From Haladaptatus sp. R4 (lineage in GTDB: Archaea; Halobacteriota; Halobacteria; Halobacteriales; Haladaptataceae): a stretch of 64,000 bases of DNA. The stretch's first letter is position 1. Each line of letters starts with the position of its first letter. The stretch covers positions 186,001 to 250,000 of the forward strand of contig NZ_LWHG01000029.1 of the NCBI RefSeq assembly GCF_001625445.1, given 5' to 3'. The position numbers and the translations under genes were made by a program. The notes beneath the pieces are model-generated. The model ran no database searches and was not told the origin of the DNA. It saw nothing but the letters and a program-made list of their open reading frames with translations. Below, one piece after another: positions 4,508 to 37,404 of the stretch.

Positions 4508-5386
4508 CTATTCGGAACGAGCGTCCGCCCACAACCGCTCGATTTCGACCCGTTCGTGCCGCGCGATGTCCGTCGGACTCATTTCGTCGTTCGACGGGCG
4601 GTGGCACTCCGCCGTGACGTATCCGTCGTACTCTCGCTCGTCGAGCGCCCCGAACAGGGGGGCGTGGTTGACGTCGCCCGTCCCGAGCAGTCGCGGTTCG
4701 AACGCTTCCACGCCGTGGCAGGTCTCCAACTCGAATCGACCGGGTCGCTCCGACTCCGATCCTGTGCACCGACGCTCGTCCTTGACGTGGACGTGTCGCA
4801 GGTCGTCGCCGAGGCGCTCGACGGACTCGCGCCCGTACCCGACGTCGGAGATGTACATGTTCCCGGCGTCGTGGATGACCCCGACGTTCTCGCGGTCGAT
4901 GGCGTCGAGCAGTCGCTCCGCGTCCGCCGCCGATTCGATGATCGTGTTCGAGTGGATTTCCATGAGGAGCGTCACGTCGTAGTCGGCGGCCACGTCCGCC
5001 GCGCGTCGCATCCACTTCGCGCCGGTTCGATACGCATCGTCGTCCGCGTCTCGGGACGGGGGACCGCCGGGACCGTGCCGTACTCGGGGACAGTCCAGGA
5101 TTTCCCCCAGTTCCAGAAATCGAGTCAATCGGTCGAGTGCCGCCTCGCACTCCGCTTCGCTCTTCCCGACGTACTTTCCGGTGTAGGTCGCCAGACACGC
5201 CACTTCGAGGTCGTTGGCGTCGAGGCGGTCCGCGATTTCGCGGGCGCGCTCGTCGCTCGTTTCGACACCGAAGTGTGGCTCTCTACCCATCAACTCGACG
5301 GCGTCGTAGTCGAGGTCCGAGACGACGTCGATGACGTCGTCCAGTCGCCGGTCGCCGAACATCTTCGTGAATACGGCTGTTTTCAT
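4508..5386 (-). CDS. Sugar phosphate isomerase/epimerase family protein (TIM barrel)
   Basis: A 292-residue protein of the AP-endonuclease-2-like TIM-barrel family. The metal ligands expected at the barrel mouth are visible: Glu in LLMEIHSNT, His/Asp in VIHDAGNM, His in HVHVKD and Glu in VTAECHRP. Relatives isomerise or epimerise sugars, and some act as 3-keto-glycoside eliminases together with Gfo/Idh/MocA dehydrogenases. Start 5386 is supported by a GAGGAGTGA ribosome binding site that overlaps the stop of the upstream oxidoreductase, only 5 bp away, so the two are co-translated. The substrate is not known. Confidence 0.85.
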   Translation of the reverse strand: MKTAVFTKMFGDRRLDDVIDVVSDLDYDAVELMGREPHFGVETSDERAREIADRLDANDLEVACLATYTGKYVGKSEAECEAALDRLTRFLELGEILDCPRVRHGPGGPPSRDADDDAYRTGAKWMRRAADVAADYDVTLLMEIHSNTIIESAADAERLLDAIDRENVGVIHDAGNMYISDVGYGRESVERLGDDLRHVHVKDERRCTGSESERPGRFELETCHGVEAFEPRLLGTGDVNHAPLFGALDEREYDGYVTAECHRPSNDEMSPTDIARHERVEIERLWADARSE

Positions 5387-5391
5387 GTCTG

Positions 5392-6459
5392 TCACTCCTC
5401 CGCGGGACGCGGGGTGAGGTCGCCGGATTCGACCATCGATTGGAGCGGGTTGTCCTCTATCTCCAGCGGGAATTCGACGCGCCCGCGCCGCCGAGCGGAC
5501 TCCCAGCAACCGAAGATGATCTCGTTCGCCGTCAGCACGTCTTCGGCGTCGAGGACGGGCGTCGTTCCCTCGTCGAGGCTCGAAACGACGTCCGCTATCG
5601 CACCGAAGATGGGACGAACGTCGTTCTCGCAGTCAACCGCCTCCGGCGTCGTCTCCCCGTCGCGGTGTACGCGCAGGTCGTGCTCGCCGGACGGCCACAG
5701 ATCGAGGACGCCTTCCGTCCCGCGAACGCGGACGAGACTGTCGAAAGCGGCGGTCCCGTCGCCTGTCGAAAGCAGCGCGTGGACCCCGTTCTCGTACTCC
5801 CACATCGCCAGCGCTTGGTTTTCGTTGTGCGACCCGTACCGGACGTTCTCGACGCTGTAGTCGACCTGACAGAGCGCCCACTCCGGCCTTCGCCCGTCGT
5901 TCAGACCGTTACAGACGTCGATCAGGTGGCTTCCGAAGTCGAAGAGGTTCTTCCCGCCGATTTCGACCCGCTCGATGGTCCCGATTTCTCCCTCCGTGAG
6001 ACGGCGTCGGGCTTCGAGATACGTTTCGCTGAACCGTCGCTGATGGTTGAACGTCAGTTGGATGTCGTTGTCGGCACACGCCGACACCATGCGACGACAA
6101 TCGCCGAACGTGTCCGCCATCGGTTTTTCGCAGTGGATGGCGCGGAGCGCGTCGCTCTCGGTACAGTCGACGACGATGTCCGCGTGCGTCGGTACCGGCG
6201 TGCAAACGCTCACGACGTCCGGTTCGACCGCACGGAGCATCTCCATGTAGTCCTCGTAAACGTCGTGATGGTCGATGTCGAACCGGTCGGCGAACGCCTC
6301 CGCGTGATCCCTGACGAGGTCCGCACACGCCACGAGCGAACAGTTTTCGAGCGCCGCGTACGCATCCGCGTGATGGTACGACATCGCCGCACTCGTTCCC
6401 CAATCCGGGGTATCCGGGTCCGGCCCGGTACCGATGAACGCCACCTTCTGCTGAGCCAT
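5392..6459 (-). CDS. Gfo/Idh/MocA family NAD(P)-dependent oxidoreductase
   Basis: A 355-residue protein with an N-terminal Rossmann fold (VAFIGTGPDPDTP, residues 6-18) and the family's E-K-P motif at 111-113 (HCEKPMADT), followed by the alpha/beta C-terminal domain. Family members oxidise or reduce sugar and inositol hydroxyls with NAD(P). It forms a two-gene unit with the isomerase downstream and diverges from another family member at 6574, sharing a 114-bp promoter region. The EKP lysine and the downstream isomerase suggest a sugar dehydrogenase; the glycan context is in line with this. Confidence 0.9.
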   Translation of the reverse strand: MAQQKVAFIGTGPDPDTPDWGTSAAMSYHHADAYAALENCSLVACADLVRDHAEAFADRFDIDHHDVYEDYMEMLRAVEPDVVSVCTPVPTHADIVVDCTESDALRAIHCEKPMADTFGDCRRMVSACADNDIQLTFNHQRRFSETYLEARRRLTEGEIGTIERVEIGGKNLFDFGSHLIDVCNGLNDGRRPEWALCQVDYSVENVRYGSHNENQALAMWEYENGVHALLSTGDGTAAFDSLVRVRGTEGVLDLWPSGEHDLRVHRDGETTPEAVDCENDVRPIFGAIADVVSSLDEGTTPVLDAEDVLTANEIIFGCWESARRRGRVEFPLEIEDNPLQSMVESGDLTPRPAEE

Positions 6460-6573
6460 TAGTATCGGGTTTGTTCTTCGCAGTCGTATTTCAACCTTCG
6501 TATAAAATTTACGATAGTTTACTTTATCGACGGTGAGATTTATGTTGTTTTCACGTGAGATAAGAATACGGAC

Positions 6574-7464
6574 ATGCTAGACATCGGTATTATCGGGCTC
6601 GATACGAGCCACGCAGAGGCGTTTGCGCCGCTTATCGACGAAACAGAGGATATGACCGTCAGCGCCGTGTGGGACGACAATTCGGTCCGGGAACCGTCGT
6701 ACACGGAATCGTTCGCCTCGAAATACGACGCGCGATACGTCCACGAACCGGGAGAGATGGTATCATACGTCGACGCGGCGATGGTTCTCACGGTCGATTG
6801 GGGAACGCACCGCCCGCTCGCGACGCCGTTCCTCGAAGCGGGCGTTCCGACCTTGATCGACAAACCGCTCGCCGGGCGGTACGAAGACATCGAGGCGATA
6901 GCGGCGGCAACCGAGCACGCACCCCTGTTCGGCGGTTCCGCCGTCCCGTTTCATCCCGAAATCACGTCGCTCATGCGGGAAGAGACGGGGCGTTCCCTCT
7001 TCGGTGCGGGCTACAACGACTACTTCTACTATCGGGTTCACATGGTGGATGCGGTCCGGATGCTCGCCGACGCGGACTGGACCGAGGTTCGGGTGGTCGA
7101 TTCGCCGGGGACGAGGACGGAAATCCGGTTTTCGAACGGAACTCACGGGACGATTCGGTTCGACGGCACGCCGACGAACGCGAGTTTCGGGTTGTTGGAC
7201 GTCGGCACCGAAACGCGGGCCGTGCGGATCGAGGGGAACGAAACGTCCTTCGCCGAGATGTACGCGCCGTTCCTCGACGCGTTCGAATCGGTCGCCCGTG
7301 GCGAGCGGGACGACACCCGCCGACTTCTCGATTCTGCCACGTTGCTGTTGGGCATCGAGGCGGCTATCGAGAGCGGTCGAACGGTCACCCCCGACAGCGA
7401 CCTCCTTCGGGAGGTGTATCGGGACGGTGATTCGTTCCTCGCAGAATACGAACCCTACTACTGA
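6574..7464 (+). CDS. Gfo/Idh/MocA family oxidoreductase
   Basis: A 296-residue family member, shorter than the usual 330-390. The Rossmann motif is IGIIGLDTSHAEAF (the GxGxxG is relaxed to GLDTSH), and the D-K-P equivalent of the E-K-P motif is at 96-98. The relaxed nucleotide-binding loop and reduced C-terminal domain are unlike the other two copies here, so cofactor use or reaction may differ. It diverges from the 355-residue paralogue and converges on the 320-residue one, with only 44 bp between stops. Confidence 0.82.
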   Translation: MLDIGIIGLDTSHAEAFAPLIDETEDMTVSAVWDDNSVREPSYTESFASKYDARYVHEPGEMVSYVDAAMVLTVDWGTHRPLATPFLEAGVPTLIDKPLAGRYEDIEAIAAATEHAPLFGGSAVPFHPEITSLMREETGRSLFGAGYNDYFYYRVHMVDAVRMLADADWTEVRVVDSPGTRTEIRFSNGTHGTIRFDGTPTNASFGLLDVGTETRAVRIEGNETSFAEMYAPFLDAFESVARGERDDTRRLLDSATLLLGIEAAIESGRTVTPDSDLLREVYRDGDSFLAEYEPYY

Positions 7465-7508
7465 TTGCGGGTTTCACGGATACGGTCGAGGATACCCGTC
7501 ATTTCCGG

Positions 7509-8471
7509 CTACGAATCCGGCCCGTCGAGAACGACGGGGGCGCCCGTTTCGAGCGATTCGTTCGCCGCGAGCGTCAATTCGAGCGTTTTTACCCCGTCCG
7601 CGTAATCGGTTCGAACGCCGCTCGCATCCCGCCGTTCGACCGCGTTTACGAACGACTCGACTTCCGTTTTGACGGCGCGACCGCACCCTTCGAATCGGAC
7701 TTCCTCACCGTCCACGCTCCCCGTCAGCGTATCCGCGGTGTAATCGAGGGTCAACTCGAAGCCGTCGCCGACCAGCGTTACCTGCGTGCCGACGGGCGTG
7801 ATGCAGTTCGTCGAAACGTGGCTGACGATACCGTTCGCGTGCTCCATACTCGACGTGTTCACGTCCTCGAAATCGATTTCGTCCCGAACGCGCCGGTTAC
7901 CGTACGTCGTTATCGTGCTCACTTCCCCGCCGAAGTGGCGGAGCACGTCGAAGACGTGCGTCGCGAGCTGGACGTTTCCGCCGCCGGACTTTTCCTTTTT
8001 CCGCCCCCACGGGCGGCCCGGAATGCCACCCCAATACCGACCGTCCATCAGCCCTATCGTCCGGTCACCGACGAGTTCGCGTGCGCGTTCCGTGATGTCG
8101 GCGTATCTGAAGAGATATCCCGTCTGGGAGATGACGTCGTTCTCCTCGATGACGGACCGTATCTCGTGGGCTTTCTCCGCAGTCCGTGCCACGGGCTTTT
8201 CCACGAACAGGTCGATGCCCTGCCGCGCGGCGAGGGTGGCCTGATTCGTGTGGGCGAATGACGGAATCGCCAACACCAACGCGTCGAGTTCGTGCTCCGC
8301 GAGCATCGTTTCGTGATCCGTGTAAACCGCCGCGTTTCGGGGGTCCGCCGCTTTCCGAGCGTTCCCTTCGTCGACGTCACAGACCGCGACGAGCGTGCAG
8401 TCGTCGATACCGTCCACGGCGTCGAGGAGGCGCGATGCCATCACTCCGGCACCGGTACAAGCGATTTCCAT
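7509..8471 (-). CDS. Gfo/Idh/MocA family oxidoreductase
   Basis: A 320-residue protein, third family member in 4 kb. Residues 1-20 (MEIACTGAGVMASRLLDAV) form the nucleotide-binding loop, E-K-P is at 91-93, and a conserved RYWGGIPGRPWGRKKEKSGG block marks the substrate face. The start at 8471 is chosen because the Rossmann strand starts at once; a longer start at 8498 adds only nine residues. It diverges from the acetyltransferase gene at 8631. Three paralogues plus a TIM-barrel isomerase point to stepwise oxidation of several monosaccharides or a 3-keto route. Confidence 0.87.
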   Translation of the reverse strand: MEIACTGAGVMASRLLDAVDGIDDCTLVAVCDVDEGNARKAADPRNAAVYTDHETMLAEHELDALVLAIPSFAHTNQATLAARQGIDLFVEKPVARTAEKAHEIRSVIEENDVISQTGYLFRYADITERARELVGDRTIGLMDGRYWGGIPGRPWGRKKEKSGGGNVQLATHVFDVLRHFGGEVSTITTYGNRRVRDEIDFEDVNTSSMEHANGIVSHVSTNCITPVGTQVTLVGDGFELTLDYTADTLTGSVDGEEVRFEGCGRAVKTEVESFVNAVERRDASGVRTDYADGVKTLELTLAANESLETGAPVVLDGPDS

Positions 8472-8630
8472 TGGTATCAGTTCTCGCAGCGGCGTCAATT
8501 AAAATTATCGCCGTACATCGTCGATGTTCGACGGGCGATACGGGAGGACGCGACCCGGACCGTTCGGGGGCCTCCTGAGGATTGTTACCAACACTTTTGT
8601 ACTGAAACCGCCTTTATCGGCGTGAAATCC

Positions 8631-9776
8631 ATGAGTGACAGTGACGGCCCTCGACTCGCCACGGCGGACGAGTTTCCCGAGATGATGGAACTGCTGGATC
8701 GCTACTTCAGTTACGAACGCGACGGGATGGCCGCGCGATTACCATACTGCTACGACCCCTCCCGAATGGAAAATCACGCGATCATCCGGAAGGACGGACG
8801 GATCGTCAGTCACGTGGGTGCGTTCCCGCAAACGTTCGTCATCGGCGGCGAGGAAGTCGAATGCTGGGGATTCGGCGGTGTTGCGACCCACAAGCGGTAC
8901 CGCGGTAACGGCTACATGAGCGAACTGATCGACTTCTGGTTCGACCGGATGGAAGCCCGAAACGTACCGCTGGCCGAGTTGAGCGGGAACAGACAGCGGT
9001 ACAACCACTTCGGGTGGGAGGCGGCGGGGCGGGAGTTCCGGTACGAGATTCACGGTCGCTCGTTCTCCGGGACCGATTCCGACCACGAACGGGTCGTCCC
9101 CTACGACGGAGGCGACGAACGACTCGACCTGCTTCGGACGCTCCACGGGGAAGAGCCGTATCGAGTGAAACGGGACGAGGAACGGAGTCGCACCGTATTC
9201 GGTCAACGGGGACTCGAAACGTTGCTGTACGAACGCGGCGACGAGTCCGCGTACGTGAGTCTCTCCCGCGAGAGTCGCGCCCGAACCATCGCCGAGTTCG
9301 GCGGTTCGGCGCGCGGGATAGAAGTCGTGTTGACACACCTCTTCGAATCGTACGATATCGACACCCTCACCGCGGTCGTTCCCCCGCGACATCCGCTCAA
9401 TACGACGTTTCGCCGTCACAGCAGGACGTGGAGTTTACGGAACCACCGAAACCTCAAGATTCTCGATCCGGCGACGATGCTCGACCGCTTCAGCGATCAG
9501 ATACGGCGTCGTTGGCGGTCCGCCGCGGAAACCGGGGACGGGTCGCTCACGCTTGGGGTCCGGGGAGCGGACGACGCGGTCCGAATATCGTACACCCCGG
9601 AAACCGTCGATGTGGCTTCGACCGACGACGAACCGGAACTGGAACTGGACGAGAACGATTTGGTCGCGCTCCTCTTCGGATTTCACGACCGAAAGCGAGA
9701 ACTCAAGGAACGCCATCCGATTCTGGCGGCGGTGTTGCCCCTCGATTTCTTCGTCTGGAAGACGGAACACGTCTGA
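8631..9776 (+). CDS. GNAT family N-acetyltransferase, Eis-like
   Basis: A 381-residue protein made of an N-terminal GNAT fold and a C-terminal sterol-carrier-like domain, the layout of the Eis (enhanced intracellular survival) family. The acetyl-CoA loop is GGVATHKRYRGNGYMSEL at about residues 82-99. Eis proteins acetylate amines on varied substrates. The start at 8631 (MSDSDGPRLA) is chosen because the frame upstream, although open back to 8292, overlaps the divergent oxidoreductase gene. In this setting an amino-sugar or amino-acid substrate is possible but unproven. Confidence 0.85.
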   Translation: MSDSDGPRLATADEFPEMMELLDRYFSYERDGMAARLPYCYDPSRMENHAIIRKDGRIVSHVGAFPQTFVIGGEEVECWGFGGVATHKRYRGNGYMSELIDFWFDRMEARNVPLAELSGNRQRYNHFGWEAAGREFRYEIHGRSFSGTDSDHERVVPYDGGDERLDLLRTLHGEEPYRVKRDEERSRTVFGQRGLETLLYERGDESAYVSLSRESRARTIAEFGGSARGIEVVLTHLFESYDIDTLTAVVPPRHPLNTTFRRHSRTWSLRNHRNLKILDPATMLDRFSDQIRRRWRSAAETGDGSLTLGVRGADDAVRISYTPETVDVASTDDEPELELDENDLVALLFGFHDRKRELKERHPILAAVLPLDFFVWKTEHV

Positions 9777-10226: not shown

Positions 10227-10251
10227 ACATTGTGTGTAACGATTTATTGTA

Positions 10252-12116
10252 ATGGCAAAGACTAGCAAGCGAGACAGCTCCCCGAGCGTCGCCGAAAGCC
10301 TCTCGCGGCGACGGCTGTTGACCGCCAGTTCGGCGGCCGTCGCCACCGGACTGGCCGGCTGTATGGGAGGAAAGAAAAAGAAGAAGCAGGGTTCGCTCAA
10401 GGAGGACACGATCAACACGTGGATCGAACGGTTGCCGACCCGGATGACGTGGAACCCGTGGGCGACGAACTACCCGTGGACGACGAGTTGGCTCGTCTGT
10501 GCGAGGGTCGTTCGGTTCTTCGCCGACGGAAGCGTGAAGACGACGATGCTCGACGATTGGTCGTACGACGCCGACAAACAGGTGACCACCATCAAGTTCC
10601 AGAAGGACTGGTACTGGTGGAACGGGAAGAAAGTGAAGGCGGCCGACAAATACTACTTCGAGGAGTTGGCTCGCCTCATGGACCCGGAAGGGAGCGACCT
10701 GAAGAAGTTGGAGATGCCCGACGACTTCACCCTCAAGCGATACCACAAGGAACCCCAGAACCCGCAACTCCTGAAATACAGCCTCGGCGGCTACCTCGGT
10801 GCGAACGTCCGTGGATACCGCGAAACGTACAAACCGTGGGTCGAGAAGTTCCAGGACGTCTCGAAGCAGTCCGAACGCGAGAGTCTCAAGGAGAAACTCG
10901 GGAAGGAAGTCAAAATACCGACGAAGGACCTCATCGACAAGGGACTCGGGACCGGGGCGTTCAAGCTCACGAAAGCGGACAACCAGAAGATGGTGTTCGA
11001 GAAGTTCGACAAACACCCGTTCGCCGACGAAATCGACATCCCGAAACTGCAACTCAACGTCGCCAAGGAGGAGACGCTCGCCAATCAGATCAAAAACGAC
11101 AAGCTCGACCTCGGGTTCGGCCTGCGTTCGGAATGGATCGACGAAGGGGTCGGACCGGAGTACATCAAGAACGTCAACACGTACCGGGACACGTACATGA
11201 CGAAGATCAACTTCGGGTTGATCGGCAAGGCGGCGAAACACCTACGAAAGCGGCAGGTTCGTCAGGCCGTCGCGTGTGCCATCGATACGAACAAACTCAT
11301 GTCGAACATCGGCGGGAAGAACTACACGCTACCCACCCAGAGCGGACTGCCGCCCGCCGTCGGGAAGAAGTGGGTCGGCGAGGACCAACTGAACGAGTAC
11401 ATCGACTATCCGACGAAAAGCGACACCGACCGCGTGGCGAAACTGATGCGCGACGCCGGATACGAGAAGAAGGGCGGCACGTGGACGGATTCGAGCGGAA
11501 AGAAGGTCACGTTCGAACTGGCCGTCGAGACGCGGTTCGCACCCCACGGAAAGACGTTGAAGGACCAACTGAAGCAGTCCGGATTCAACGTCAACTTCAT
11601 GACCCTCTCGGCGAACAACTTCTCCTCGAAGTATTCGGACACCCCGACGTTCGACATGACTATCGACGAACACGGCGCGCTGACGGCCCATCCCTACTAC
11701 TACTTCCGCAGCGACCATCAGTTCGGCAACGAACTCGGCGAACCCGGCGCGGTCAAACGCTGGCTCCAACAGGGGAAGGGCCGGTCCCAGTTCGACGGAC
11801 GGGAACTGAAGCCGGAGATTCCGAAGAAAGTGGGCGCGGAGGACCTCTCCGGCGCTACCGAGAGGGTCAACCTGTTCGAACTGACCCAGAAGTGGAAGAG
11901 CGCACAGACGAAACAGGAAAACCGCCGCTCGCTCGGAAGTATTCGTGGTACTGGAACTTCCACCTGCCGCAAATCGACCTCTACCAGAGCGCCAGCGGCA
12001 GTTGGGGAGATACGGAGAACTTCACGTTCCAGAACACCGATTCGAATGATTGGAAGTCCTATCGGGCCTGCTACACCAATCTCAAGCGTGGCAACATCAA
12101 AGCGAAGAAGAACTGA
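10252..12116 (+). pseudogene. ABC transporter substrate-binding protein (peptide/oligosaccharide type), frameshifted near 3' end
   Basis: A lipoprotein of the SBP_bac_5 family. It begins with a Tat signal (RRR at 19-21) and a lipobox ending in C37 (GLAGC), followed by a GGKKKKKQ linker. The frame runs about 559 codons to 11928, then shifts; the next frame continues with LARKYSWYWNFHLPQIDLYQ to a stop at 12116, giving about 621 residues if one C is restored. In archaea this family carries peptides and also oligosaccharides. The protein is unusually rich in lysine for a haloarchaeon. The ATPase (12692) and permeases (15320, 16329) downstream complete the transporter. The lost base may be a sequence error. 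Confidence 0.82.
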
Positions 12117-12432: not shown

Positions 12433-12691
12433 AGAGTATGCGAACGGTTCACTATCCATCTATATAAATATTGACCGCGCTCCCGCAGAAGGCGTCTCCG
12501 TCCGGTGGAGCGATAGCCCGCTCCCGACGAGAACCGTCTTCCGTCCGGAGCGGCGGTCGATACGGTCCGATAGGGACAAAGATTATTAGCGTTTGTTCGG
12601 ATTAGTTACTCGTGAAGTCGGACGGGGTCGTGCCGGAACCCGAAGCGGCGTGTGCGGACGAAACGACACGGCAACGAACACAAGTGAAACG

Positions 12692-14881
12692 ATGACAGTA
12701 AGTGAATCCGAAATCAGCCGGAAACGATCGACGGATAACGACGTGATCCTGGAGCTTCGTAACGTCGAGGTCACGTTCGATATGGACCGCGGGACGTCGC
12801 GGGTGCTCGACGGGGTCGATATGGAGATTTACCGCGACGAGATCCTCGGCGTCATTGGGGAGAGCGGGAGCGGGAAATCGATGTTCGCCTCGGCGCTCCT
12901 CCACGCAGTCGTCGAACCGGGGCGGACGAGCGGAGAAATCATCTATCACCCGGAGGACGGGGACCCCGTCGACGTTCTCTCGTTGACCGAAAGCGAACTG
13001 GAATCGTTCCGCTGGGAGGAAATCTCGATGGTGTTCCAGGGCGCGATGAGTTCGTTCAATCCGACGATGAAGATCGGCGAGCACTTCGAGGAGACCATCA
13101 AAGCACACAACGCGGATCACGACGAGCGGATGGCGCACGCCAGACGCATCCTCGACGACCTCTATCTCGACTCCGATCGGGTGCTCGATTCGTACCCACA
13201 CGAATTGAGCGGCGGGATGCAACAGCGGGTGCTCATCGCGCTGTCGCTCGTGCTCGAACCGGAGGTGCTCGTCATGGACGAACCCACGGCGGCGCTGGAC
13301 CTGTTGATGCAACGCTCCATCATTCGACTCCTCGCGAAACTACAGGAGCGGTACGATCTGACCATCGTCTTCATCACGCACGACCTGCCGCTCGTCGCCG
13401 GACTCTCGGACCGATTGGCGGTGATGTACGCCTTCGAATTCGTCGAGTACGCCCCGAGCGAGGAACTCCTTCGACACGCGAGCCATCCGTACACGCGAGC
13501 ACTGCTGAAATCCGTCCCGAGCGTCGATGCACCCTTGGAGGAACTACACGCAATCGAGGGCGAAAGCCCGGACCCGGTCAACGTTCCGGAGGGGTGCTCG
13601 TACGCCCCCCGCTGTCCGCTCGCCGACGATCAGTGTACGACGGCGGAACCGGGATACCACACCGTCGATGATCCGGAAGACGGGCATCGAGCGGCGTGTT
13701 TCCACTGGAAGGAGGCCGAGGATGCCGTGTCCTACTCGTTACAACAGGAGGTGGAAACTCAGCCCCAACGAGGGACGACTCGGTTCGGCGGAACGACGTC
13801 CGAGACGATCATCTCGCTGGAGGACGTCAGCGTCACGTTCGACGAGTCGGGACTGTTGGACCGCCTGTTTTCGGACGAAGCGCCGGTCGTCCAAGCCGTC
13901 AACGACGTGTCGCTCGACATCGAGGAAAACGAGGTGGTCGCCCTCGTCGGCGAGAGCGGTTGCGGGAAGACGACGCTCGGCAAGACGAGCATCGGTCTCC
14001 AGCGGCCGACCGAGGGAAGCGTCACCTACCGCGGACAGGACATCTGGGACGCGAAGGAAGGGCGCGGGGACATCGACGTTCCCCACGACGAGATACGGCG
14101 CTCGCTGCAGATCATCCATCAGGACCCCGGTAGTTCGTTGAACCCGACGAGAACGGTTCTGACGAGTCTCGCAGCGCCGCTGAAGAAGTGGAAGCCGGAG
14201 ATGAACGCCAACGAGCGCGAGGCGTACGTCTACAACCTGCTCGAACGGGTCGGGATGAAACCGGCGTCGGACTACGCGATGCGATTCCCCCACCAACTCA
14301 GCGGCGGCGAAAAGCAACGCGTCGCCCTGTTGCGTGCGCTGTTGATGAGTCCGGACCTCATTCTGGCCGACGAGGCGGTGAGCGCCCTCGACGTGTCGCT
14401 GCGCGTCGAGATGATGGACCTCATGCTCGAACTGCAGGACCTCTTCGACACGTCGTTCCTGTTCATCTCCCACGACTTCTCCAACGCGCGATACCTCGCG
14501 GAGAAATCGGGCGGACGCATCGGCATCATGTATCTCGGTGAACTCGTGGAAATCGGACCCGCCGAGGAGGTGCTCCGAAATCCGTCACACCCGTACACCA
14601 AGGTGCTCAAATGGGCGACCCCCGCGATGGACCCCGACGTCGCTGCGGCGGAGAGCCAGGAGGAACCGCCGATTCGAAAGATCGACGTTCCCGACCCGTT
14701 GAATCCGCCGAGCGGGTGCCGGTTTCACACCCGCTGTCCGAAGGCGCGGGAGGCGTGTAAACGCGCCTCGCCGGAACTCCGGCAGTCGGATCACAACTCC
14801 CGTACGGCCTGTTTCAGGGAGGATAAAACGCACGAGTACTGGAACAGCGAACCGCTCGAAGGGGTCGAGGAAGCGGAGTAG
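12692..14881 (+). CDS. Peptide/oligosaccharide ABC transporter ATP-binding protein, DppD-DppF fusion
   Basis: A 729-residue protein with two complete ABC ATPase domains in tandem. Domain 1 (about 15-270) has Walker A GESGSGKSM, signature LSGGMQQR and Walker B VLVMDEPTAALD. Domain 2 (about 375-640) has Walker A GESGCGKTT, signature LSGGEKQR and LILADEAVSALD. Each is followed by the oligopeptide-family C-terminal cysteine motif (GCSYAPRCP and GCRFHTRCP). In most bacteria these are two proteins. The start at 12692 (MTVSESE) is used because the 33 codons before it have no family features. It powers the permease pair at 15320-17417. Confidence 0.93.
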   Translation: MTVSESEISRKRSTDNDVILELRNVEVTFDMDRGTSRVLDGVDMEIYRDEILGVIGESGSGKSMFASALLHAVVEPGRTSGEIIYHPEDGDPVDVLSLTESELESFRWEEISMVFQGAMSSFNPTMKIGEHFEETIKAHNADHDERMAHARRILDDLYLDSDRVLDSYPHELSGGMQQRVLIALSLVLEPEVLVMDEPTAALDLLMQRSIIRLLAKLQERYDLTIVFITHDLPLVAGLSDRLAVMYAFEFVEYAPSEELLRHASHPYTRALLKSVPSVDAPLEELHAIEGESPDPVNVPEGCSYAPRCPLADDQCTTAEPGYHTVDDPEDGHRAACFHWKEAEDAVSYSLQQEVETQPQRGTTRFGGTTSETIISLEDVSVTFDESGLLDRLFSDEAPVVQAVNDVSLDIEENEVVALVGESGCGKTTLGKTSIGLQRPTEGSVTYRGQDIWDAKEGRGDIDVPHDEIRRSLQIIHQDPGSSLNPTRTVLTSLAAPLKKWKPEMNANEREAYVYNLLERVGMKPASDYAMRFPHQLSGGEKQRVALLRALLMSPDLILADEAVSALDVSLRVEMMDLMLELQDLFDTSFLFISHDFSNARYLAEKSGGRIGIMYLGELVEIGPAEEVLRNPSHPYTKVLKWATPAMDPDVAAAESQEEPPIRKIDVPDPLNPPSGCRFHTRCPKAREACKRASPELRQSDHNSRTACFREDKTHEYWNSEPLEGVEEAE

Positions 14882-17417: not shown

Positions 17418-17452
17418 GCGGGAATCCGACACGGATTTTTGGAAGTTCCGAA

Positions 17453-26490: not shown

Positions 26491-26515
26491 CCCCGCTCCG
26501 TGTGAAACCACCGGC

Positions 26516-28066: not shown

Positions 28067-28072
28067 CACGCA

Positions 28073-31000
28073 ATGGAGAGAGAACACGATCTCTCGGACG
28101 GCCAGCGGCGCGACTGGTCGGCCGAGAGTATAGCTGACAGCGTATCGACATCCCTCGAACTGGAACGACGGGACTTCCTCAAGGCCGCGAGTGCGAGTGC
28201 CGTGCTCTCCGCGCTCGGGACGGGGGTCGCCGCGTCGAGCACCGACGCGTCCAACGCGAAGACGCGCCCGACCATCTGGACGACCGAAGACCGGCGGAAC
28301 GCGAGGGAGAACATTCAGCAGTACGATTGGGCGAAGTCCCAGCGTGACGATGCCGTTGCGACCGCCGACGAGTTTCTCGACAGGTTCGATACGCTCGACG
28401 ATTTGTGGCACTTCGTCCCGGCACAGACGGTGCCGCGGTCCTCGTTCCTCAGTCCGGACTATCACTGGGACAACCCGTTCTACGATAGCTGGGACCAGTA
28501 CGACGACCCGTGGAAGATAACCGACGGCGAGTACGTGTTCCCGACGAACGACTTCGCGTCGTACCGCCGGAGCGGCCTGGACGACGAGGGGATGTTCGAT
28601 CCGGAACTGGCCGACGATCAGTACCTCGTCAACGAGGAACACCCCGAGATGGGTGAGGGCTGGGGCGTCGACGACGGATACGGGTGGCAGGACACGAACG
28701 ACGACCTCGGCGAGGGAGAGGGCGCGTGGTGGGACTTCGTCGCGTACTACAACCACTGGGGGGTCTGGCGACCCGGCGGCGTCGTCCGCATGATGCGAGC
28801 GTTCACCGACGCGTTCCTCCTCACGGGGGACCAGAAGTACTCGCGTCCCTGTGCGATCCTACTCGACCGCATCGCGGACGTGTACCCGGACATGGACGTC
28901 TCGGCGTACTGCGACCCGCGAGCGGGCGGTCACTACCACAACAACACCGGCGGCCGCCAGACCGGGAAGATAATCGGTTCCCACTGGGAACCCAATCTCA
29001 TCCGCCCCGTGATGCGGGCGTACGACGCCATCTTCCCGGGCATGGAGGGGGACCAACAGTTGGTGGACTTCCTCAAGGGGAAGGTCGAGGAGTATCCGGG
29101 ACTGGAGGCGAAGGACAGCGTCGGGAAAATCCGGAAGAACATCGAGGACGGCCTGCTCAGGGAGATTCTTCCCGCCGCGAAGCAATCCCAACTCGCCCCC
29201 GCCCGTGGACAGTTGCCCGCGGTCACCATCTCGGCGCGGATACTCGACGAACCGAACGGCTACACGCGGGACGCGCTCCACTGGGTGTTCCAACCCGGTC
29301 GAGAGATATTCACGGGCGACGTCTGGTACAAAGAGCCGGAGAAGTGGGCGACGACGGGCGGGAACGTCATGGCGAAACTCGTCGATACGGAGGGACGCGA
29401 CGGCTACTTCGACGAATCGTCCCCGCTGTACAATCCCATCGCGCAAGCGGCGGTGCTCGACATCGGCGACCTCCTGCGTGGCTACGACGGGTTCGACGGG
29501 GCGGACCTCTACGACCACGTCAAATTCCACCGCATCATGCACACGCACATCCCGCTCATCATGCTGGATAAACACACGCCGCTGATCGGGGACGCGCATC
29601 CGAACCGGTTGTACCTGGACGAGAACTCGAAACGAAACGCCTTCGAGGCGTACGGCGAGGACATCTTCGGCCAGACGCTTCACTTCATCAACGGCTTCTC
29701 GACGGAGGGGCTACGCGGCGACATCTTCTCCGAGGACCCCACGCAACTTCGCGAGGACGTCGAAGCGATCATCGCGGCGGACGGGCCACTGGACCTGGGA
29801 AGCACCATTCAACCGTCCTACGGGTTTACGGCGCTGCGCGACGGGAAGAACTACAAGGCCCTGAACGACGGCGGGACGAAGTATCGCTTCCTCTCGCTGG
29901 AGGTCGTCGAGCGTTCGACCGGCGTCTGGCGGCCGTCCGAGGTCGATGCGCTCGCACTCGAATCCAAGGACGCGTTCGGGGAAAACACCCTCCAACTGGA
30001 AGCGAACGAGCCCGGTCAGCACATCACGTTCGCGTTCGAGATAACCGACGCGGGCACGTATCACTTCACCCTTCGCCCGTTCGAATCGTCCGTCTACGGT
30101 ATCTACGACATCGAAATCGACGGCACGGTGGTCGATACCTACGACTTCTACGACGAGACGACCGGTCCGAAGAGTGACTTCATCGCGCTGGACGGTACCG
30201 CCGAACTCTCCGAGGGAACGCACGAAATCACCTTCCGGAACGTCGGCAAGAACGACGACGCGTCGAACTACAAGATGGGTATCATCCAGTTCGAAACCTA
30301 CGACCGCGACGACTGGTACCGGCGAGAGAACGCGGTCGAGAAGGGCAACGCCAAACGCGGTATCTGGACGTACTACGGCCGAACGGGGGATTACGGCAAT
30401 CACACCCACCGCGACACGCTGAACCTCGGCGTGATGGCGTACGAACTCGACCTCGCACCCGACAACGGCTACCCGACCCTCACGGGAAGCTGGCCGCGGC
30501 GGCGCTACTGGCACAAGAACACCATCGCCCACAATACGGTCATGGTGGACGAGCGTCGGCAGGAGGGACAGCGCGTCGCCGTCCCGAAGCACTTCGACGA
30601 CACCGACACGGTTCAGTTGTCGGAGGTGGCCGCGCCGCAGGTGTATCCCCAAACGGACGACTATCGCCGCACCACCGCGATGATCCACGTCGACGACGTG
30701 AACTCCTACGGCGTCGACTTCTTCCACGTCGACGGCGGCGACGACCACCGCTTCAGTTTCCACGGCTGGGTCGGTGACGTGGCCACGGGCGGGTTGGACC
30801 TCGTGGAACAGGACGGCGGCACGTACGCCGGTCCCGACGTTCCGAAACCCGAGAACGTGGCGAATCCCAACTCCCAGTACAACGAGGAGGTTGGCAACGG
30901 GTTCAACTACCTCGACAACGTCGCTCGCGACGACGACCCGTCGACTCACGCCAGCATCGACTGGGATATCGAGGACTACTGGGGAACTCGGGACGACGAC

Positions 31001-32290
31001 GACGCCGACATCCACCTCCGGTTGACGATGCTCGGTGACCACGACGAAATCGCCGTCATGGACGGCCACCCGCCGGATACGGACAACCAACCGGACACCA
31101 TCAAGTACGTCATCGCGCGACGGACCGGAACCGACATCGAGAGCACGTTCACGTCGGTGGTCGAACCGTATATGAGCGATCGATTCATCGAGTCGACGGA
31201 AGCGGTTCCGATAACCACGGATGGCGACGGTGCCGCCGCCCGCGCGGTCAAGGTCGAACTGACGAACGGGCGAACGGACTACGTCGCCTACGGAGGCGAC
31301 TCCGACAGAACGTACGACGTCGGAGACGTGTTCTCGTTCGAGGGATTCTTCGCCGTCTATAGCGAGCGGGACGGGGAACCCGTCCACGCGTACCTCAACG
31401 ACGGACGGTCGCTCACCCCGATGGAAACGGACTCACCGCTCATCGACGCGTCCCACGGCCAGTTCACCGGGACCGTCGAGGACTTCACCCGCGAGATGAC
31501 GATCCAGAACGAACTCGACGTCACCGTCGACGAACACGTCAGCGACATCGACCGGGCGCAAGGCGGTCAGATATACGTCCAAACGGACGGGCTGGTCAAC
31601 GGCGTTTACCCTGTTCACGGGACCTCGAAGTCAGGAGACCGCACGACCGTCGACGTCGGCGAGCGAACGACGATAGAGTCGTTCACGAATCCCGACCAAC
31701 TCGACGACGGAGGGTACGACTACTATCTCTCCGAGGGCGACGAGTTCTACATCCCGCTCGGTAACACGTGGAAACTGCTGTTCGCCAGCATCGACCCCAG
31801 TTCCACGACTGCAACGGTCGGCGAGCGCCTCGAATTCAGCGCCGACGATACGACGGGCAACGACCGCTGGGTCGAGTCACTGGAGTGGGACTTCGGCGAC
31901 GGGACGTCGGCGACGGGGTGGTGGAACGACCATCGGTACGACGACCGCGGCGAATACACCGTCGAACTGACCGCGACGGCCAACGACGGGCGGACGACGA
32001 CCGACGAGGTCACGATTTCCGTCTCGGACCTCGGCGAACCGATCGCACGGATTCGGCCGAGTACGACCGAACCGTCGACCGGTGAAGACGTCGAGTTCTT
32101 CGCCAAGGACACGACGAGTAACGACCGTTGGATCGAGTCGCTGGAGTGGGACTTCGGCGACGGGACGTCGGCGACGGGATGGTGGACGGAACATCAGTAC
32201 GGCGGGACGGGCGAACACACCGTGGTGCTGACCGCCACCGACAACACCGGCCACTCGACGACCGACGAGGTGACTATCACAGTCGGCTGA
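28073..32290 (+). CDS. Exported heparinase II/III-like protein with two PKD domains
   Basis: A 1405-residue exported protein. A Tat signal (RR at 32-33, ERRDFLKAASASAVLSALG) precedes an alpha-helical region (about 70-560). Then come a carbohydrate-binding-like beta domain (about 630-740), the lyase sandwich with NHTHRDTLNLGVMAYELD at about 772-790 and WHKNTIAHNTVMVDE near 820, and two PKD domains at about 1235-1405. It probably binds and cleaves a polyuronic glycan outside the cell, feeding the transporters here. PKD domains give adhesion or substrate contact. The two PKD units are 87 codons apart and nearly identical in DNA (31874 and 32135), a recent duplication. The family fit of the lyase is good but the exact substrate is unknown. 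Confidence 0.85.
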   Translation: MEREHDLSDGQRRDWSAESIADSVSTSLELERRDFLKAASASAVLSALGTGVAASSTDASNAKTRPTIWTTEDRRNARENIQQYDWAKSQRDDAVATADEFLDRFDTLDDLWHFVPAQTVPRSSFLSPDYHWDNPFYDSWDQYDDPWKITDGEYVFPTNDFASYRRSGLDDEGMFDPELADDQYLVNEEHPEMGEGWGVDDGYGWQDTNDDLGEGEGAWWDFVAYYNHWGVWRPGGVVRMMRAFTDAFLLTGDQKYSRPCAILLDRIADVYPDMDVSAYCDPRAGGHYHNNTGGRQTGKIIGSHWEPNLIRPVMRAYDAIFPGMEGDQQLVDFLKGKVEEYPGLEAKDSVGKIRKNIEDGLLREILPAAKQSQLAPARGQLPAVTISARILDEPNGYTRDALHWVFQPGREIFTGDVWYKEPEKWATTGGNVMAKLVDTEGRDGYFDESSPLYNPIAQAAVLDIGDLLRGYDGFDGADLYDHVKFHRIMHTHIPLIMLDKHTPLIGDAHPNRLYLDENSKRNAFEAYGEDIFGQTLHFINGFSTEGLRGDIFSEDPTQLREDVEAIIAADGPLDLGSTIQPSYGFTALRDGKNYKALNDGGTKYRFLSLEVVERSTGVWRPSEVDALALESKDAFGENTLQLEANEPGQHITFAFEITDAGTYHFTLRPFESSVYGIYDIEIDGTVVDTYDFYDETTGPKSDFIALDGTAELSEGTHEITFRNVGKNDDASNYKMGIIQFETYDRDDWYRRENAVEKGNAKRGIWTYYGRTGDYGNHTHRDTLNLGVMAYELDLAPDNGYPTLTGSWPRRRYWHKNTIAHNTVMVDERRQEGQRVAVPKHFDDTDTVQLSEVAAPQVYPQTDDYRRTTAMIHVDDVNSYGVDFFHVDGGDDHRFSFHGWVGDVATGGLDLVEQDGGTYAGPDVPKPENVANPNSQYNEEVGNGFNYLDNVARDDDPSTHASIDWDIEDYWGTRDDDDADIHLRLTMLGDHDEIAVMDGHPPDTDNQPDTIKYVIARRTGTDIESTFTSVVEPYMSDRFIESTEAVPITTDGDGAAARAVKVELTNGRTDYVAYGGDSDRTYDVGDVFSFEGFFAVYSERDGEPVHAYLNDGRSLTPMETDSPLIDASHGQFTGTVEDFTREMTIQNELDVTVDEHVSDIDRAQGGQIYVQTDGLVNGVYPVHGTSKSGDRTTVDVGERTTIESFTNPDQLDDGGYDYYLSEGDEFYIPLGNTWKLLFASIDPSSTTATVGERLEFSADDTTGNDRWVESLEWDFGDGTSATGWWNDHRYDDRGEYTVELTATANDGRTTTDEVTISVSDLGEPIARIRPSTTEPSTGEDVEFFAKDTTSNDRWIESLEWDFGDGTSATGWWTEHQYGGTGEHTVVLTATDNTGHSTTDEVTITVG
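31874..32185 (+). repeat. Internal duplication of PKD-coding DNA
   Basis: About 51 bp starting at 31874 recur at 32135 (261 bp apart, in frame) with two differences. They encode ESLEWDFGDGTSATGWW in both units. The near identity at DNA level points to recent duplication or gene conversion. Confidence 0.75.
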
Positions 32291-32661: not shown

Positions 32662-32678
32662 GTTTGGTAATACGGAAC
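32662..32678. promoter_or_regulatory. 17-bp palindrome, GTTTGG type
   Basis: GTTTGGTAATACGGAAC, 156 bp from the copy at 32506. The pair resembles the paired sites at 865 and 984 (119 bp apart). Confidence 0.45.
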
Positions 32679-33487: not shown

Positions 33488-34480
33488 TCACTTGACGATG
33501 TCGATCTTCTCGCGGTCCATGGACATGGCGACGGCCAGGACCACGACGATGCCGAGGATAATCTGCTGGACGAACGACCCGATACCGATGAGGTTCATAC
33601 CGTTTGCCAAAACTCCGATGACGAGCACGCCGATGAGCGTTCGATGCGGACCGCCGACGCCACCCGTCAGAGCAGTACCGCCCATGACGACGCCAGCGAT
33701 GCTCTGCAGCAGGAGTCCCTGACCCATACCGGCGGCGGCCGACGAGATGCGTGCGGTGAGGAGCGCACCGGCGATACCACAGAGGAGGCCGGAGACGACG
33801 AAGACGCCTATCTTGTACCGGTCGACCGGGACGCCGGAGAGTTCGGTCACTTTCTCGCTTTCACCGAGGGCGTAGCAGTAGCGCCCGAACGGCGTGAAGA
33901 AGGCGACGAACACGGTGATGACGTAGAACACCAGTCCCAACACCACGAGGTTGGGTATCCGAGGGACGACGTTTCCGATGGCCAGTTGTTGAACCGCCAG
34001 ATTCCGATACGGTTGGGAACTCCCGTTCGTGAGCAACAGCGCCCCGCCCATGAGAACGGACTGCGTCCCGAGCGTCACCAGGAACGAGGGAATCTTCCCT
34101 TTGGCGAAGACGACACCGTTCACCAATCCGGCGGCTAGCCCCACGAACGGGCCGACGAAGATGCCGACGAAACCGAATTGATTGATCGCCATGGCGGTCA
34201 GGACGCCGGAGAGGCCGAGGTTTGCGGCGACGGAGAGGTCGATGCTCTGCTGGAGAATGGGAAACGTCCCGGCGAGTGCCACCAACAACAGGATGGTGGA
34301 GTTCATCAGAATGCTGTTCACGAGGTTGTTGAACGTCAGGAACACCGGCGAGAGCGCGGTGAACAGGGCCAGCAGGATGACGAGCATCGCCACCGGACCG
34401 GCGTCTCGAATCCAGTCCTGGATCGAGCGCTTCTCGTACAGTTCACCGATGATCGTTCGTTCGGATTGTTCGCTACTCAT
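33488..34480 (-). CDS. Sugar ABC transporter permease, RbsC type
   Basis: A 330-residue protein with about nine hydrophobic segments and the BPD_transp_2 signature (VALAGTFPILQQSIDLSVAANLGLSG). This family imports monosaccharides such as ribose, galactose or autoinducer-type sugars. It overlaps the ATPase gene by 4 bp, and is the last of three genes in the order binding protein, ATPase, permease. Only one permease is present, so a homodimer is expected. Confidence 0.92.
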   Translation of the reverse strand: MSSEQSERTIIGELYEKRSIQDWIRDAGPVAMLVILLALFTALSPVFLTFNNLVNSILMNSTILLLVALAGTFPILQQSIDLSVAANLGLSGVLTAMAINQFGFVGIFVGPFVGLAAGLVNGVVFAKGKIPSFLVTLGTQSVLMGGALLLTNGSSQPYRNLAVQQLAIGNVVPRIPNLVVLGLVFYVITVFVAFFTPFGRYCYALGESEKVTELSGVPVDRYKIGVFVVSGLLCGIAGALLTARISSAAAGMGQGLLLQSIAGVVMGGTALTGGVGGPHRTLIGVLVIGVLANGMNLIGIGSFVQQIILGIVVVLAVAMSMDREKIDIVK

Positions 34481-36072
34481 AGTTGTAACATCTCCTGGAT
34501 GAGGTCTTCTTCCTCGGGTTTCTCTGCTACTGGTGCGGAGACGACGGTCTCCAGGTTACCGTGTCTCATGACTCCGATACGATTCGACATGCCGATCACT
34601 TCCGGTAGTTCGTCGCCGATTAGGACGATAGAAACACCGTTCGCGGCTAGCTGACGAATGACGCGATACACTTCCTCTTTCGCTCCGACGTCGATACCGC
34701 GCGTCACGTTGTCCACGACCAGCACGTCGACGTTACGCTGGAGCCATTTCGCGATGACGACCTTCTGCTGGTTTCCACCGCTGAGCGTGTGAGCGAGCGC
34801 CTCGATTCCCGGCGTCTTGATGGCCAAATTCTCGACGGCATCCTCGGCGATGGATCGCTCCGCCTCGAAGTCGATTATCGGGAGGAACCGCCCGATGACG
34901 GGGAGGTCGCGTCGAAGCTTCCCCGTGTCGATGGAGGGGAGAGAAACGTTCTCACGGAGACTCTGATAGAGGAGGACGCCATCGCTCTTCCGTTCCTTCG
35001 GGATGTATCCGATCCCCGCGTCCACGAACGCGGGAACCGACCCCGACCGAACGGGGTCGCCATCGAACAGAATCGTCCCCGAATCGACGTCCGTGGCACC
35101 CGTAAGTGCCCGCCCGAGAGCCTGTTTTCCGCTGCCCTCGACGCCGACGATACCGAATATCTCCCCTTCTCTGAGGTCCATCGAAACGTCGTAAATACGG
35201 TCCTCGACGGTGAGACCCTCCACGGAGAGAACGGTCGGCGCGTCGGCGTCGATCGACTCCTGTTCGTGGGTTCGGTAGTACTCGTCCGACGTACTTCGGC
35301 CGACCATCGTCTGTTGAAGGAGCGACTCTGTCGCGTCGTCGGCCGACATTTCGTCGACGACGGCACCGTCCTTCAGCACGTAGATTCGGTCGCTGACCTC
35401 CAGTACTTCGTCGAGTTCGTGGGAGACGAAGACGAAGGAAGCGCGGTCGCGCAAGTCGTCGATACGGTCGAAGAGGACGTCACGACCGGACTGTTCGAGG
35501 GCGGCCGTCGGTTCATCGAGGAACAGGATGGGGTGGTCGGCGTCCCGGGCACTGTTGAACGCCCGAGCGATTTCCAACATCTGCCGTTCGTTGAACCGGT
35601 ACGTCCGAACTGGCGACCCGAGGTCGAGGTCGATACCGAGGTCGTCGACGACCGCGTTCGCGCGCTCGCGGAGCGCATTCCGGTTCAGTTTCGGACCGGT
35701 CGTGTAGCGACCGAGGCGTCCGAGAAACAGGTTCTCGTAGCCGGTGAGGTTCGGGACGATGCTCTGTTCCTGCTGGACGATGGAGATGCCGTGTCTGGCC
35801 GCCTCGGTCGGACTCCCGAACGCCACCGTCTCGCCGTCGAGGACGATACGACCCTCGTCGGCCGAGTAGATCCCGGAAAGGACGTTCAGCAGCGTGCTCT
35901 TCCCGGCCCCGTTCTCGCCGACGAGTCCGACGACCTCGTTCTTTCGAATCTCGAACGTGACGTGGTCCAGTGCCGTCGTGTTCTTGAACCGTTTCGTGAG
36001 GTCGTCGACGTGCAGGAGTGGTGTATCGGTGTCCTGTGGAACTGGAGTCCCACTGATTTCTGTTTTGCTCAT
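34477..36072 (-). CDS. Sugar ABC transporter ATP-binding protein, RbsA type (two ABC domains)
   Basis: A 531-residue double ABC ATPase. Domain 1 has Walker A GENGAGKST near residue 52 and Walker B LFLDEPTAALE, with a weakened signature (FNERQMLEIARA). Domain 2 has the degenerate Walker A GVEGSGKQA and a good signature LSGGNQQKVVIAKW, as is usual for RbsA/MglA-type proteins where one site is inactive. It is 15 bp downstream of the binding protein gene and overlaps the permease gene, so one operon is near certain. Confidence 0.93.
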   Translation of the reverse strand: MSKTEISGTPVPQDTDTPLLHVDDLTKRFKNTTALDHVTFEIRKNEVVGLVGENGAGKSTLLNVLSGIYSADEGRIVLDGETVAFGSPTEAARHGISIVQQEQSIVPNLTGYENLFLGRLGRYTTGPKLNRNALRERANAVVDDLGIDLDLGSPVRTYRFNERQMLEIARAFNSARDADHPILFLDEPTAALEQSGRDVLFDRIDDLRDRASFVFVSHELDEVLEVSDRIYVLKDGAVVDEMSADDATESLLQQTMVGRSTSDEYYRTHEQESIDADAPTVLSVEGLTVEDRIYDVSMDLREGEIFGIVGVEGSGKQALGRALTGATDVDSGTILFDGDPVRSGSVPAFVDAGIGYIPKERKSDGVLLYQSLRENVSLPSIDTGKLRRDLPVIGRFLPIIDFEAERSIAEDAVENLAIKTPGIEALAHTLSGGNQQKVVIAKWLQRNVDVLVVDNVTRGIDVGAKEEVYRVIRQLAANGVSIVLIGDELPEVIGMSNRIGVMRHGNLETVVSAPVAEKPEEEDLIQEMLQL

Positions 36073-36087
36073 TGATCAGGTATTGGA

Positions 36088-37404
36088 CTACTGGTATGGG
36101 TCCGTCTCGTGGTGTTTCCGGTACGTCTTTTCGACCTCGTCGAACTTGCCCCCGTCGTCGTAAACGTCGGGGAGCGAATAGCCGTTCGGTTTGTTGGATT
36201 CGGTCCAGTTGAGCTGATCGAGTTCGTCCTTTCGGATGGGAACGAGCCTGTTCTGTGGATCCCAGCTATCCGGATTGTGGTGTCGAGACATCTTCTTCCA
36301 ATCGTACGGCGATTTCTCGTCCGAGTACGCGACATCGAGATAGGGATCGGGTTTCGACCACGAGACGTCGAACTTCGTCTTCGTCTTCCCCTCGTACCGA
36401 CTCGGCTTCTTCGTGACGAGGACGCCGCCGCCCCACATCATCCGCTCGGGTGGTTTTGGCCTCCAGCCGTTGAGCCAGTCGAATCCTTCGACGACCGCGT
36501 AGCCGCCCTGCCAGAACGTTTTGGCGGAAAACGACGCCACCCAATTCGGACCGTCTCCGTCCGGGCTGGTTTGTTTGATGTTCCTGATGGCGTCCGACGG
36601 ACCGTCGTAGCCGACCAGCGGGACGCTCAAGTCGTTGTTTTTGAGGACGGTGAACGCGCCGAGTCCCATCGCGTCGTTCTGACAGTAGACCCCGTCGATC
36701 TTGTCACCGAACTTGGAGACGAACGACGACATGACCTTCCGTCCCGATGGCCGGTCCCATTTTCCGGGGAGCATACCGAGTCGGTTGACGTTTGGATACT
36801 TCTTCATCGCCCGCTCGACCCCGATGTTTCGGTTGCGCCCGGTCGCACCGTGCGGACCGGTGATGTGAACGAAGTTACCCTTCGTTTCCATCGCCTCGAA
36901 GAGGATTTCGGCGGTGAGTTGACCCGTCTTCACAACGGCCGGAATCTGATACTGGATGAAGTTGTCACCGGCGTCGAGCGGCGTGTACCACTTCGCGATG
37001 TTCCAGTAGTCGACGAATCCGGCGTCATTCTGTTTGCACTTGCGCACGACGGTGGGAACACCGGAGGCCTGATACGGCGTTCCACCGATGACGTTGTACT
37101 CCTTGGTGAACGCGGTCGAAAGTTGGGTGAGCATCTGCTGTTGTTGACCCTGATTCTGCTTGTAGTCGGACGTCGGCGCACCGAGGGCTTTTGCCGCCTC
37201 CTGTACACCCGAGGCGAAGGCCTTCCACTGATCGTTTTGGAGGTTCGTCACCATCCCGAACGGTTTGAGCGTTTTCTTCCCGCCGGTACCGTTTTTCGAC
37301 CCGCTTCCGCTCGAATTGCTGCTACAACCCGAAAGACCGACCAACGCTGCACTGCCGAGAGCGCCGGAGGTTTTGACGAACTGTCGCCTGCTATGGTTGG
37401 ACAT
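36088..37404 (-). CDS. Sugar ABC transporter substrate-binding lipoprotein
   Basis: A 438-residue periplasmic-binding-like protein with a Tat signal (RR at 6-7, SRRQFVKTSGALGSAALVG) and a lipobox ending in C27 (GLSGC). The fold is the sugar-binding group with SBP motifs such as VNRLGMLPGKWDRPSG and NDAMGLGAFTVLKNNDLSVP. It heads the three-gene ribose-type transporter. Like the other binding protein in this window it is richer in Lys than typical halophilic proteins. The upstream AT-rich stretch (37405-37450) likely holds its promoter and contains an AACAC/GTGTT inverted repeat. Confidence 0.9.
   Translation of the reverse strand: MSNHSRRQFVKTSGALGSAALVGLSGCSSNSSGSGSKNGTGGKKTLKPFGMVTNLQNDQWKAFASGVQEAAKALGAPTSDYKQNQGQQQQMLTQLSTAFTKEYNVIGGTPYQASGVPTVVRKCKQNDAGFVDYWNIAKWYTPLDAGDNFIQYQIPAVVKTGQLTAEILFEAMETKGNFVHITGPHGATGRNRNIGVERAMKKYPNVNRLGMLPGKWDRPSGRKVMSSFVSKFGDKIDGVYCQNDAMGLGAFTVLKNNDLSVPLVGYDGPSDAIRNIKQTSPDGDGPNWVASFSAKTFWQGGYAVVEGFDWLNGWRPKPPERMMWGGGVLVTKKPSRYEGKTKTKFDVSWSKPDPYLDVAYSDEKSPYDWKKMSRHHNPDSWDPQNRLVPIRKDELDQLNWTESNKPNGYSLPDVYDDGGKFDEVEKTYRKHHETDPYQ

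Follow-up and report, generated by a model that had tools for sequence, protein, structure and literature searches.

A conserved haloarchaeal gene cluster lies in a 64,000-nucleotide stretch of the genome of Haladaptatus sp. R4 (hereafter the window: C29:186001-250000 of a 4.9-Mb draft genome), and is probably a catabolic locus of the polysaccharide-utilisation type, directed at a sulfated, uronate-containing and glycosaminoglycan-like glycan. The gene set is a real locus beyond chance clustering, since it recurs across many genera and since six relatives have the sole GH20 gene of their genome within it. The locus begins about 4.5 kb to the left of the window and ends at position 32290 with the gene for HEP1, a predicted exported heparinase II/III-type lyase.

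Among 292 Halobacteria genomes searched, about ten hold full-length relatives of HEP1, the PKD-only matches that dominated the survey being set aside; in a genome collection, relatives were identified in Haladaptatus litoreus, Natrinema zhouii, Natronococcus pandeyae, Halovivax, Natrialba and Saliphagus. The neighbourhoods of the six closest relatives hold mostly the same genes, and gene-by-gene comparison of fourteen loci, some of whose stretches end at the flank length, shows that differing selections of the locus genes occur together in Haladaptatus, Natronococcus, Natrononativus, Natrinema, Natrialba, Halovivax, Saliphagus and Halomontanus. Recurring genes encode the exported lyase, an oligopeptide-type importer, three Gfo/Idh/MocA oxidoreductases, a TIM-barrel protein, a GNAT protein, an esterase, a BNR-LamG protein, a HEAT protein, a sulfatase-like protein and an FAA hydrolase. 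HEP1 alone is common to every compared locus, the remaining gene sets overlapping. The nearest locus is that of H. litoreus (HEP1 78% over the whole protein; the toroid protein HEP2, 75%; the sulfatase SULF2, 78%), and several loci sit on megaplasmids. In a tree of HEP1, archaeal sequences fall on one side of a branch with support of 91. Distant homologues in Halogranum, Haloferax massiliensis and Halocatena stand without the locus, and the many homologues in Paenibacillus and other Bacillota have different neighbours.

Copy number varies among these lyases. Most Natrialbaceae loci hold two or three copies of HEP1. HEP1-type lyases have also multiplied in Paenibacillus, where P. contaminans and P. 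oceani encode many of them and their gene neighbourhoods have nothing in common. A related locus is found on plasmids of Haladaptatus sp. YSMS36 and DYSN1, in which three heparinase-type genes accompany Nramp, two GNATs, a mannonate dehydratase and PIG-L. An extra heparinase II gene (PL21-like, HepB-like) adjoins the locus of H. litoreus at 17359-19443 of its stretch, with no match in the Haladaptatus sp. R4 genome. Gamma-glutamyltransferase genes lie inside the Natronococcus and Natrononativus loci; poly-gamma-glutamine is present in Natronococcus walls.

From 4.5 to 32.3 kb the window runs, in order, through the TIM-barrel, three Gfo/Idh/MocA and GNAT genes, the oligopeptide-type importer, a hydrolase, BNR_4-LamG, HEAT, HEP2, SULF1, SULF2 and HEP1. 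Domain profile matches recovered the gene families that a preliminary description of this DNA had placed here, with the exception of its second heparinase II/III-like protein (HEP2); its list lacked the GNAT gene (about 8.6-9.8 kb), the HEAT gene, the FAA hydrolase, the IclR regulator and the Nramp fragment. The features, in window coordinates, are as follows.

6-791, minus strand: FAA-hydrolase family protein (diketo-acid hydrolase-like); PF01557, 5e-63
1003-1809, minus strand: IclR-type regulator, a candidate locus regulator by position only; PF01614/PF09339
3211-3981, minus strand: Nramp metal transporter, N-terminal part out of frame or missing; PF01566 from profile position 121
4508-5386, minus strand: TIM-barrel sugar isomerase/epimerase-like protein (start taken at the ATG near 5386); PF01261 (AP_endonuc_2), 1e-41; relatives of 47-57% in many loci
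5392-6459, minus strand: Gfo/Idh/MocA oxidoreductase 1; PF01408, 3e-17; relatives 40-61%
6574-7464, plus strand: Gfo/Idh/MocA oxidoreductase 2; PF01408, 2e-11; relatives 48-51%
7509-8471, minus strand: Gfo/Idh/MocA oxidoreductase 3 (start near 8471); PF01408, 2e-18; relatives 57-62%
8628-9776, plus strand: GNAT family N-acetyltransferase (approximate start); PF13527, 1e-22; relatives 40-61%, in most loci
10252-12110, plus strand: oligopeptide-type solute-binding protein, with frame changes near 11.9 kb; PF00496 (SBP_bac_5), 8e-26
12593-14881, plus strand: fused OppD-OppF ATPase; two ABC_tran and two oligo_HPY domains; relatives 65-73%
15320-16342, plus strand: ATP-binding cassette (ABC) permease 1; PF00528; relatives 63-87%
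16329-17417, plus strand: ABC permease 2; PF00528; relatives 55-81%
17453-19499, minus strand: two-domain alpha/beta-hydrolase (esterase-like); PF00326/PF01738
19545-21460, minus strand: BNR_4 and LamG protein; PF15892, PF13385
21450-22316, minus strand: HEAT-repeat protein (true start probably further upstream); PF13646; relatives 33-40%, in six loci
22784-24619, minus strand: HEP2, putative cytoplasmic (alpha/alpha)-toroid protein (fold from a low-confidence model)
24976-26370, minus strand: SULF1, sulfatase-like, motif C-M-P-S-R; PF00884, 2.5e-42
26513-27946, plus strand: SULF2, S1 sulfatase, motif S-I-P-A-R; PF00884, 1e-48; exceeds the NCBIfam arylsulfatase cut-off
28073-32290, plus strand: HEP1, predicted twin-arginine (Tat)-exported heparinase II/III-type lyase; PF07940, 5e-9
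33488-37404, minus strand: ribose-type ABC importer (permease, double ATPase, binding protein); PF02653, PF00005, PF13407

Comparison between genomes shifts the locus leftwards from the span of 4508-37404 first proposed. Genes to the left are counted as members because copies of the FAA hydrolase, 71-76% identical, occur in related loci (9 of the 14 compared); its NCBIfam match to 2,4-didehydro-3-deoxy-L-rhamnonate hydrolase (1e-41) is under the cut-off. Relatives of the Nramp protein (63-65%) occur in Natronococcus, Natrialba and Haladaptatus loci. Beyond the window edge (C29:181501-186115) lie a luciferase-like oxidoreductase (72-74% identical to copies in other loci), a fourth Gfo protein (mostly 51-54%), an enolase-superfamily protein and a second TIM-barrel gene. 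On the right, the ribose-type importer, previously counted as a second uptake component, is absent from all compared loci and probably lies outside the conserved locus; the methyltransferase, IclR, BNR and CoA-transferase genes of the right flank were rejected as members on the same ground of non-recurrence. A threonine-dehydratase-type pyridoxal phosphate (PLP) enzyme with an ACT domain, encoded at 1888-3126 between the FAA hydrolase and IclR genes and the locus, does not occur in related loci.

The identification of HEP1 as an extracellular heparinase II/III-type lyase, a prediction already made in the preliminary description, is supported by several features of its sequence. A twin-arginine signal, MERRDFLK, can be read at its start (TAT_signal_seq E 0.0035), and the Hepar_II_III_C domain (PF07940) scores 36.5 bits against a curated cut-off of 24. 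The protein matches the PL17 lyase AlgL17 and a xanthan-binding module, and carries an inserted xanthan-binding-like module together with two PKD domains. Of its motif residues, H777, H820 and N821 are kept in 77 of 77 sequences and H779 and D781 in 75 of 77, Bacillota included.

The second protein first described as heparinase II/III-like, HEP2, did not hold up as a family member by sequence: it has no Pfam, NCBIfam, PDB sequence or profile-profile match, and no profile similarity either to HEP1 or to a 633-residue heparinase of Haladaptatus YSMS36. Its own genome aside, no relatives were found in the 292 Halobacteria genomes, viral contigs or plasmids, the sole orthologue found being that of H. 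litoreus. An AlphaFold model built from two sequences, of low confidence (predicted local distance difference test score, pLDDT, 48.6), folds as an (alpha/alpha)6 toroid whose structural neighbours include PL35 and PL17 lyases, GH88, GH76 and epimerases; the toroid part reaches Z 15.0 to a PL35 chondroitinase, but GH76, GH88 and epimerases score about as high. HEP2 also carries an H-x-H-A-D...H-N motif resembling that of HEP1. From the model, a cytoplasmic oligosaccharide lyase appears the likeliest function, a dehydratase or hydrolase being possible.

The two sulfatase genes do not form the settled pair of Cys and Ser enzymes at first envisaged. SULF1 keeps C-x-P-S-R in all loci seen; its GKxH motif and later catalytic lysine are both replaced in all five aligned sequences, making it a divergent, Cys-motif sulfatase-like protein without two canonical lysines and of putative activity. 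SULF2 retains the sulfatase domain, the GKxH motif and the later lysine, and every orthologue seen has Ser, the motif reading S-I-P-A-R in Haladaptatus, Halovivax, Saliphagus and Halomontanus; its best PDB match is 7oz8, and its best solved relative is BT1918, an N-acetylglucosamine (GlcNAc) 3-O-sulfatase of family S1_46. The Haladaptatus sp. R4 genome encodes, on another contig, one FGE with the usual active-site cysteines, an enzyme known to act on Cys; unmodified Cys sulfatases can retain weak activity. With one model per enzyme and some genomes in draft, so that absence is not proof, the Ser-type maturase anSME was not found above cut-off in this genome or in eight relatives, nor FGE in six of the eight, H. 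litoreus included. Because sulfatase genes occur in genomes in which neither known maturation enzyme was found, the way haloarchaea activate sulfatases can be tested directly. The Haladaptatus sp. R4 genome has a further group of sulfatase genes at C33:72001-112000, together with an FGE and an additional importer of the oligopeptide type; a sulfatase gene and a second FGE-like gene there appear broken.

We infer the substrate, the order of steps and all activities of the pathway as follows. HEP1, exported by the Tat system and anchored to its substrate through the binding module and the PKD domains, would cut the polymer by beta-elimination, and the oligopeptide-type ABC system would take up the resulting oligosaccharides. 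In the cytoplasm, the sulfatases, the esterase (whose H. litoreus orthologue has an AXE1 match), HEP2 and the BNR-LamG protein may trim and shorten them. Given the absence of GH88, opening of the ends probably falls to Gfo/Idh/MocA oxidation and TIM-barrel elimination or hydration; sugar acids would then yield 2-keto-3-deoxy (and diketo) acids, which the FAA hydrolase would split to pyruvate and a short acid. This agrees with the preliminary description in its main steps, oligopeptide-type uptake before intracellular processing being predicted from the genes, and the oxidative and eliminative route being consistent with the absence of GH88 and with the paired Gfo/Idh/MocA and TIM-barrel genes of the locus and its relatives. 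The description of the locus as complete is not supported, as no unsaturated-uronyl hydrolase was recognised. GH88 (PF07470) has no match in this genome and was found in one of seven others searched, away from the locus, so the published haloarchaeal glycosaminoglycan route is not applicable as such.

Natrialbaceae loci hold D-aminoacylase, FAA hydrolase and DgaE-like ammonia-lyase as neighbours, plus GH20, GH3 and PIG-L, suggesting an oxidative route for N-acetylhexosamine. Because GH20, GH3, D-aminoacylase and the DgaE-like ammonia-lyase are carried there, the polymer of these relatives probably contains N-acetylhexosamine, and in each of the six relatives searched the sole GH20 gene lies inside the locus. 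GH20 has no match in the Haladaptatus sp. R4 genome, where the enolase-superfamily protein may act in place of the DgaE-like enzyme. A DgaE-like ammonia-lyase (67% to locus copies) does occur at C3:52001-72000 of this genome, beside an oligopeptide-type importer with OppDF in several frames.

Several points weigh against the catabolic reading set out above. The substrate is reached by deduction, and the functions of HEP2 and BNR-LamG are based on fold or family only; the latter shows no signal peptide and no PDB sequence match, and its two-sequence AlphaFold model has a mean pLDDT of 36.8. The Gfo proteins fall far under the NCBIfam equivalog cut-offs. The hexosamine inference is borrowed from relatives, the window's own locus being without GH20, D-aminoacylase or an adjacent DgaE-like gene. 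In earlier tests, haloarchaea with polysaccharide lyases failed to grow on alginate or pectin. Frameshifts, if real, would inactivate several genes: breaks occur in the genes for the binding protein, the esterase (two breaks), BNR-LamG, Nramp and the fourth Gfo, of a single base where checked. That the locus is decaying here through such inactivation is nevertheless improbable. Continuations do run out of frame against intact relatives (tblastn with an intact binding protein carries on in another frame), but the largest genes (HEP1, OppDF, HEP2 and both sulfatases) are intact, and the shifts relative to H. litoreus are single-base losses: deletions near 17913 and 17968 split an esterase that is one 667-residue open reading frame there, and a one-base shift near 20666 splits a BNR-LamG gene that in H. 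litoreus is also a single frame, of 621 residues. Similar breaks occur in other parts of the genome (OppDF in several pieces on contig C3, a sulfatase on C33), for which reason the frameshifts are probably assembly errors.

Within the catabolic reading, one tentative possibility is that the natural substrate consists of sulfated S-layer or wall glycans, rich in uronate and amino sugars, from other (dead) haloarchaea. Such surface glycans are known in Halobacterium and Halococcus; the neighbourhood is common to haloarchaea and not to the Bacillota with HEP1 relatives; relatives add GH20, GH3, PIG-L and gamma-glutamyltransferase; and the failure of lyase-bearing haloarchaea to use alginate or pectin points the same way. 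Direct evidence is lacking, however, some haloarchaea use vertebrate glycosaminoglycans, and algal glycans may reach salterns. More speculative still is the broader proposal of a widespread, often plasmid-borne recycling of the haloarchaea's own sulfated amino-sugar and uronate glycans, with the Gfo/TIM-barrel route in place of GH88 and a Ser-type sulfatase either unmodified or activated by a route not yet known. It seems unlikely that the substrate is ulvan or another sulfated uronate polysaccharide of algae, with BNR_4 acting as an ulvan-type lyase and HEP2 as an oligosaccharide dehydratase. Known ulvan pathways employ PL24/PL25-type lyases and an oligosaccharide dehydratase, and the locus does hold sulfatases, a heparinase-type fold and a BNR_4 family protein, a family we take to be linked to PL24/25 lyases; yet the genome has no GH88/GH105-type match (PF07470), the BNR-LamG protein is without export signal or PDB sequence match, and the hexosamine-type enzymes of the relatives do not fit.

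Lyase genes of unknown use had been noted in haloarchaea earlier (PMC9726719), and the first demonstration that these archaea use acidic polysaccharides, by way of PL8 loci, dates from 2026 (PMC13260240). The earlier remark that a complete archaeal version could not be named is therefore out of date, though the published glycosaminoglycan loci, with PL8, GH88 and GH154, hold a different enzyme set. The loci of the Natronoarchaeum/Haloarcula H-hyl strains are plasmid-borne and combine a Tat-exported lyase, an ABC importer and a sulfatase for acidic polysaccharides, whereas the present locus has a heparinase II/III-type lyase, no GH88, and Gfo, TIM-barrel and FAA-hydrolase genes (PMC13260240). 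The heparin/heparan sulfate utilisation locus of Bacteroides, with the orphan sulfatase BT1918, shares heparinase-type lyases and exo-acting S1 sulfatases, BT1918 being the closest solved structure to SULF2; here, however, GH88 is missing, no maturase for the Ser-type sulfatase was recognised, and no SusC/SusD domain occurs among the scanned locus genes, the ABC importer serving uptake. In the levoglucosan pathway LgdA-B1-B2-C, oxidation, elimination, hydration and reduction by Gfo/Idh/MocA dehydrogenases and a TIM-barrel eliminase/hydratase are established (PMC7676230); the likeness is by gene families only, equivalog models not being reached here. A D-aminoacylase-type enzyme deacetylates oxidised GlcNAc in the OngB-OngC route of marine bacteria (PMC9537276, PMC12017989), and related loci hold a D-aminoacylase-type protein near a PLP ammonia-lyase, plus GH20. 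Their ammonia-lyase is of DgaE/SelA type whereas OngC is of fold-type III, an FAA hydrolase stands where 2-keto-3-deoxygluconate (KDG) kinase would be expected, and the D-aminoacylase/ammonia-lyase part is absent from the window's locus. A few steps, among them the removal of unsaturated ends and the activation of one sulfatase, depart from the known bacterial and archaeal schemes, and the locus names conserved candidate machinery, testable genes in cultured species and a GH88-free route.

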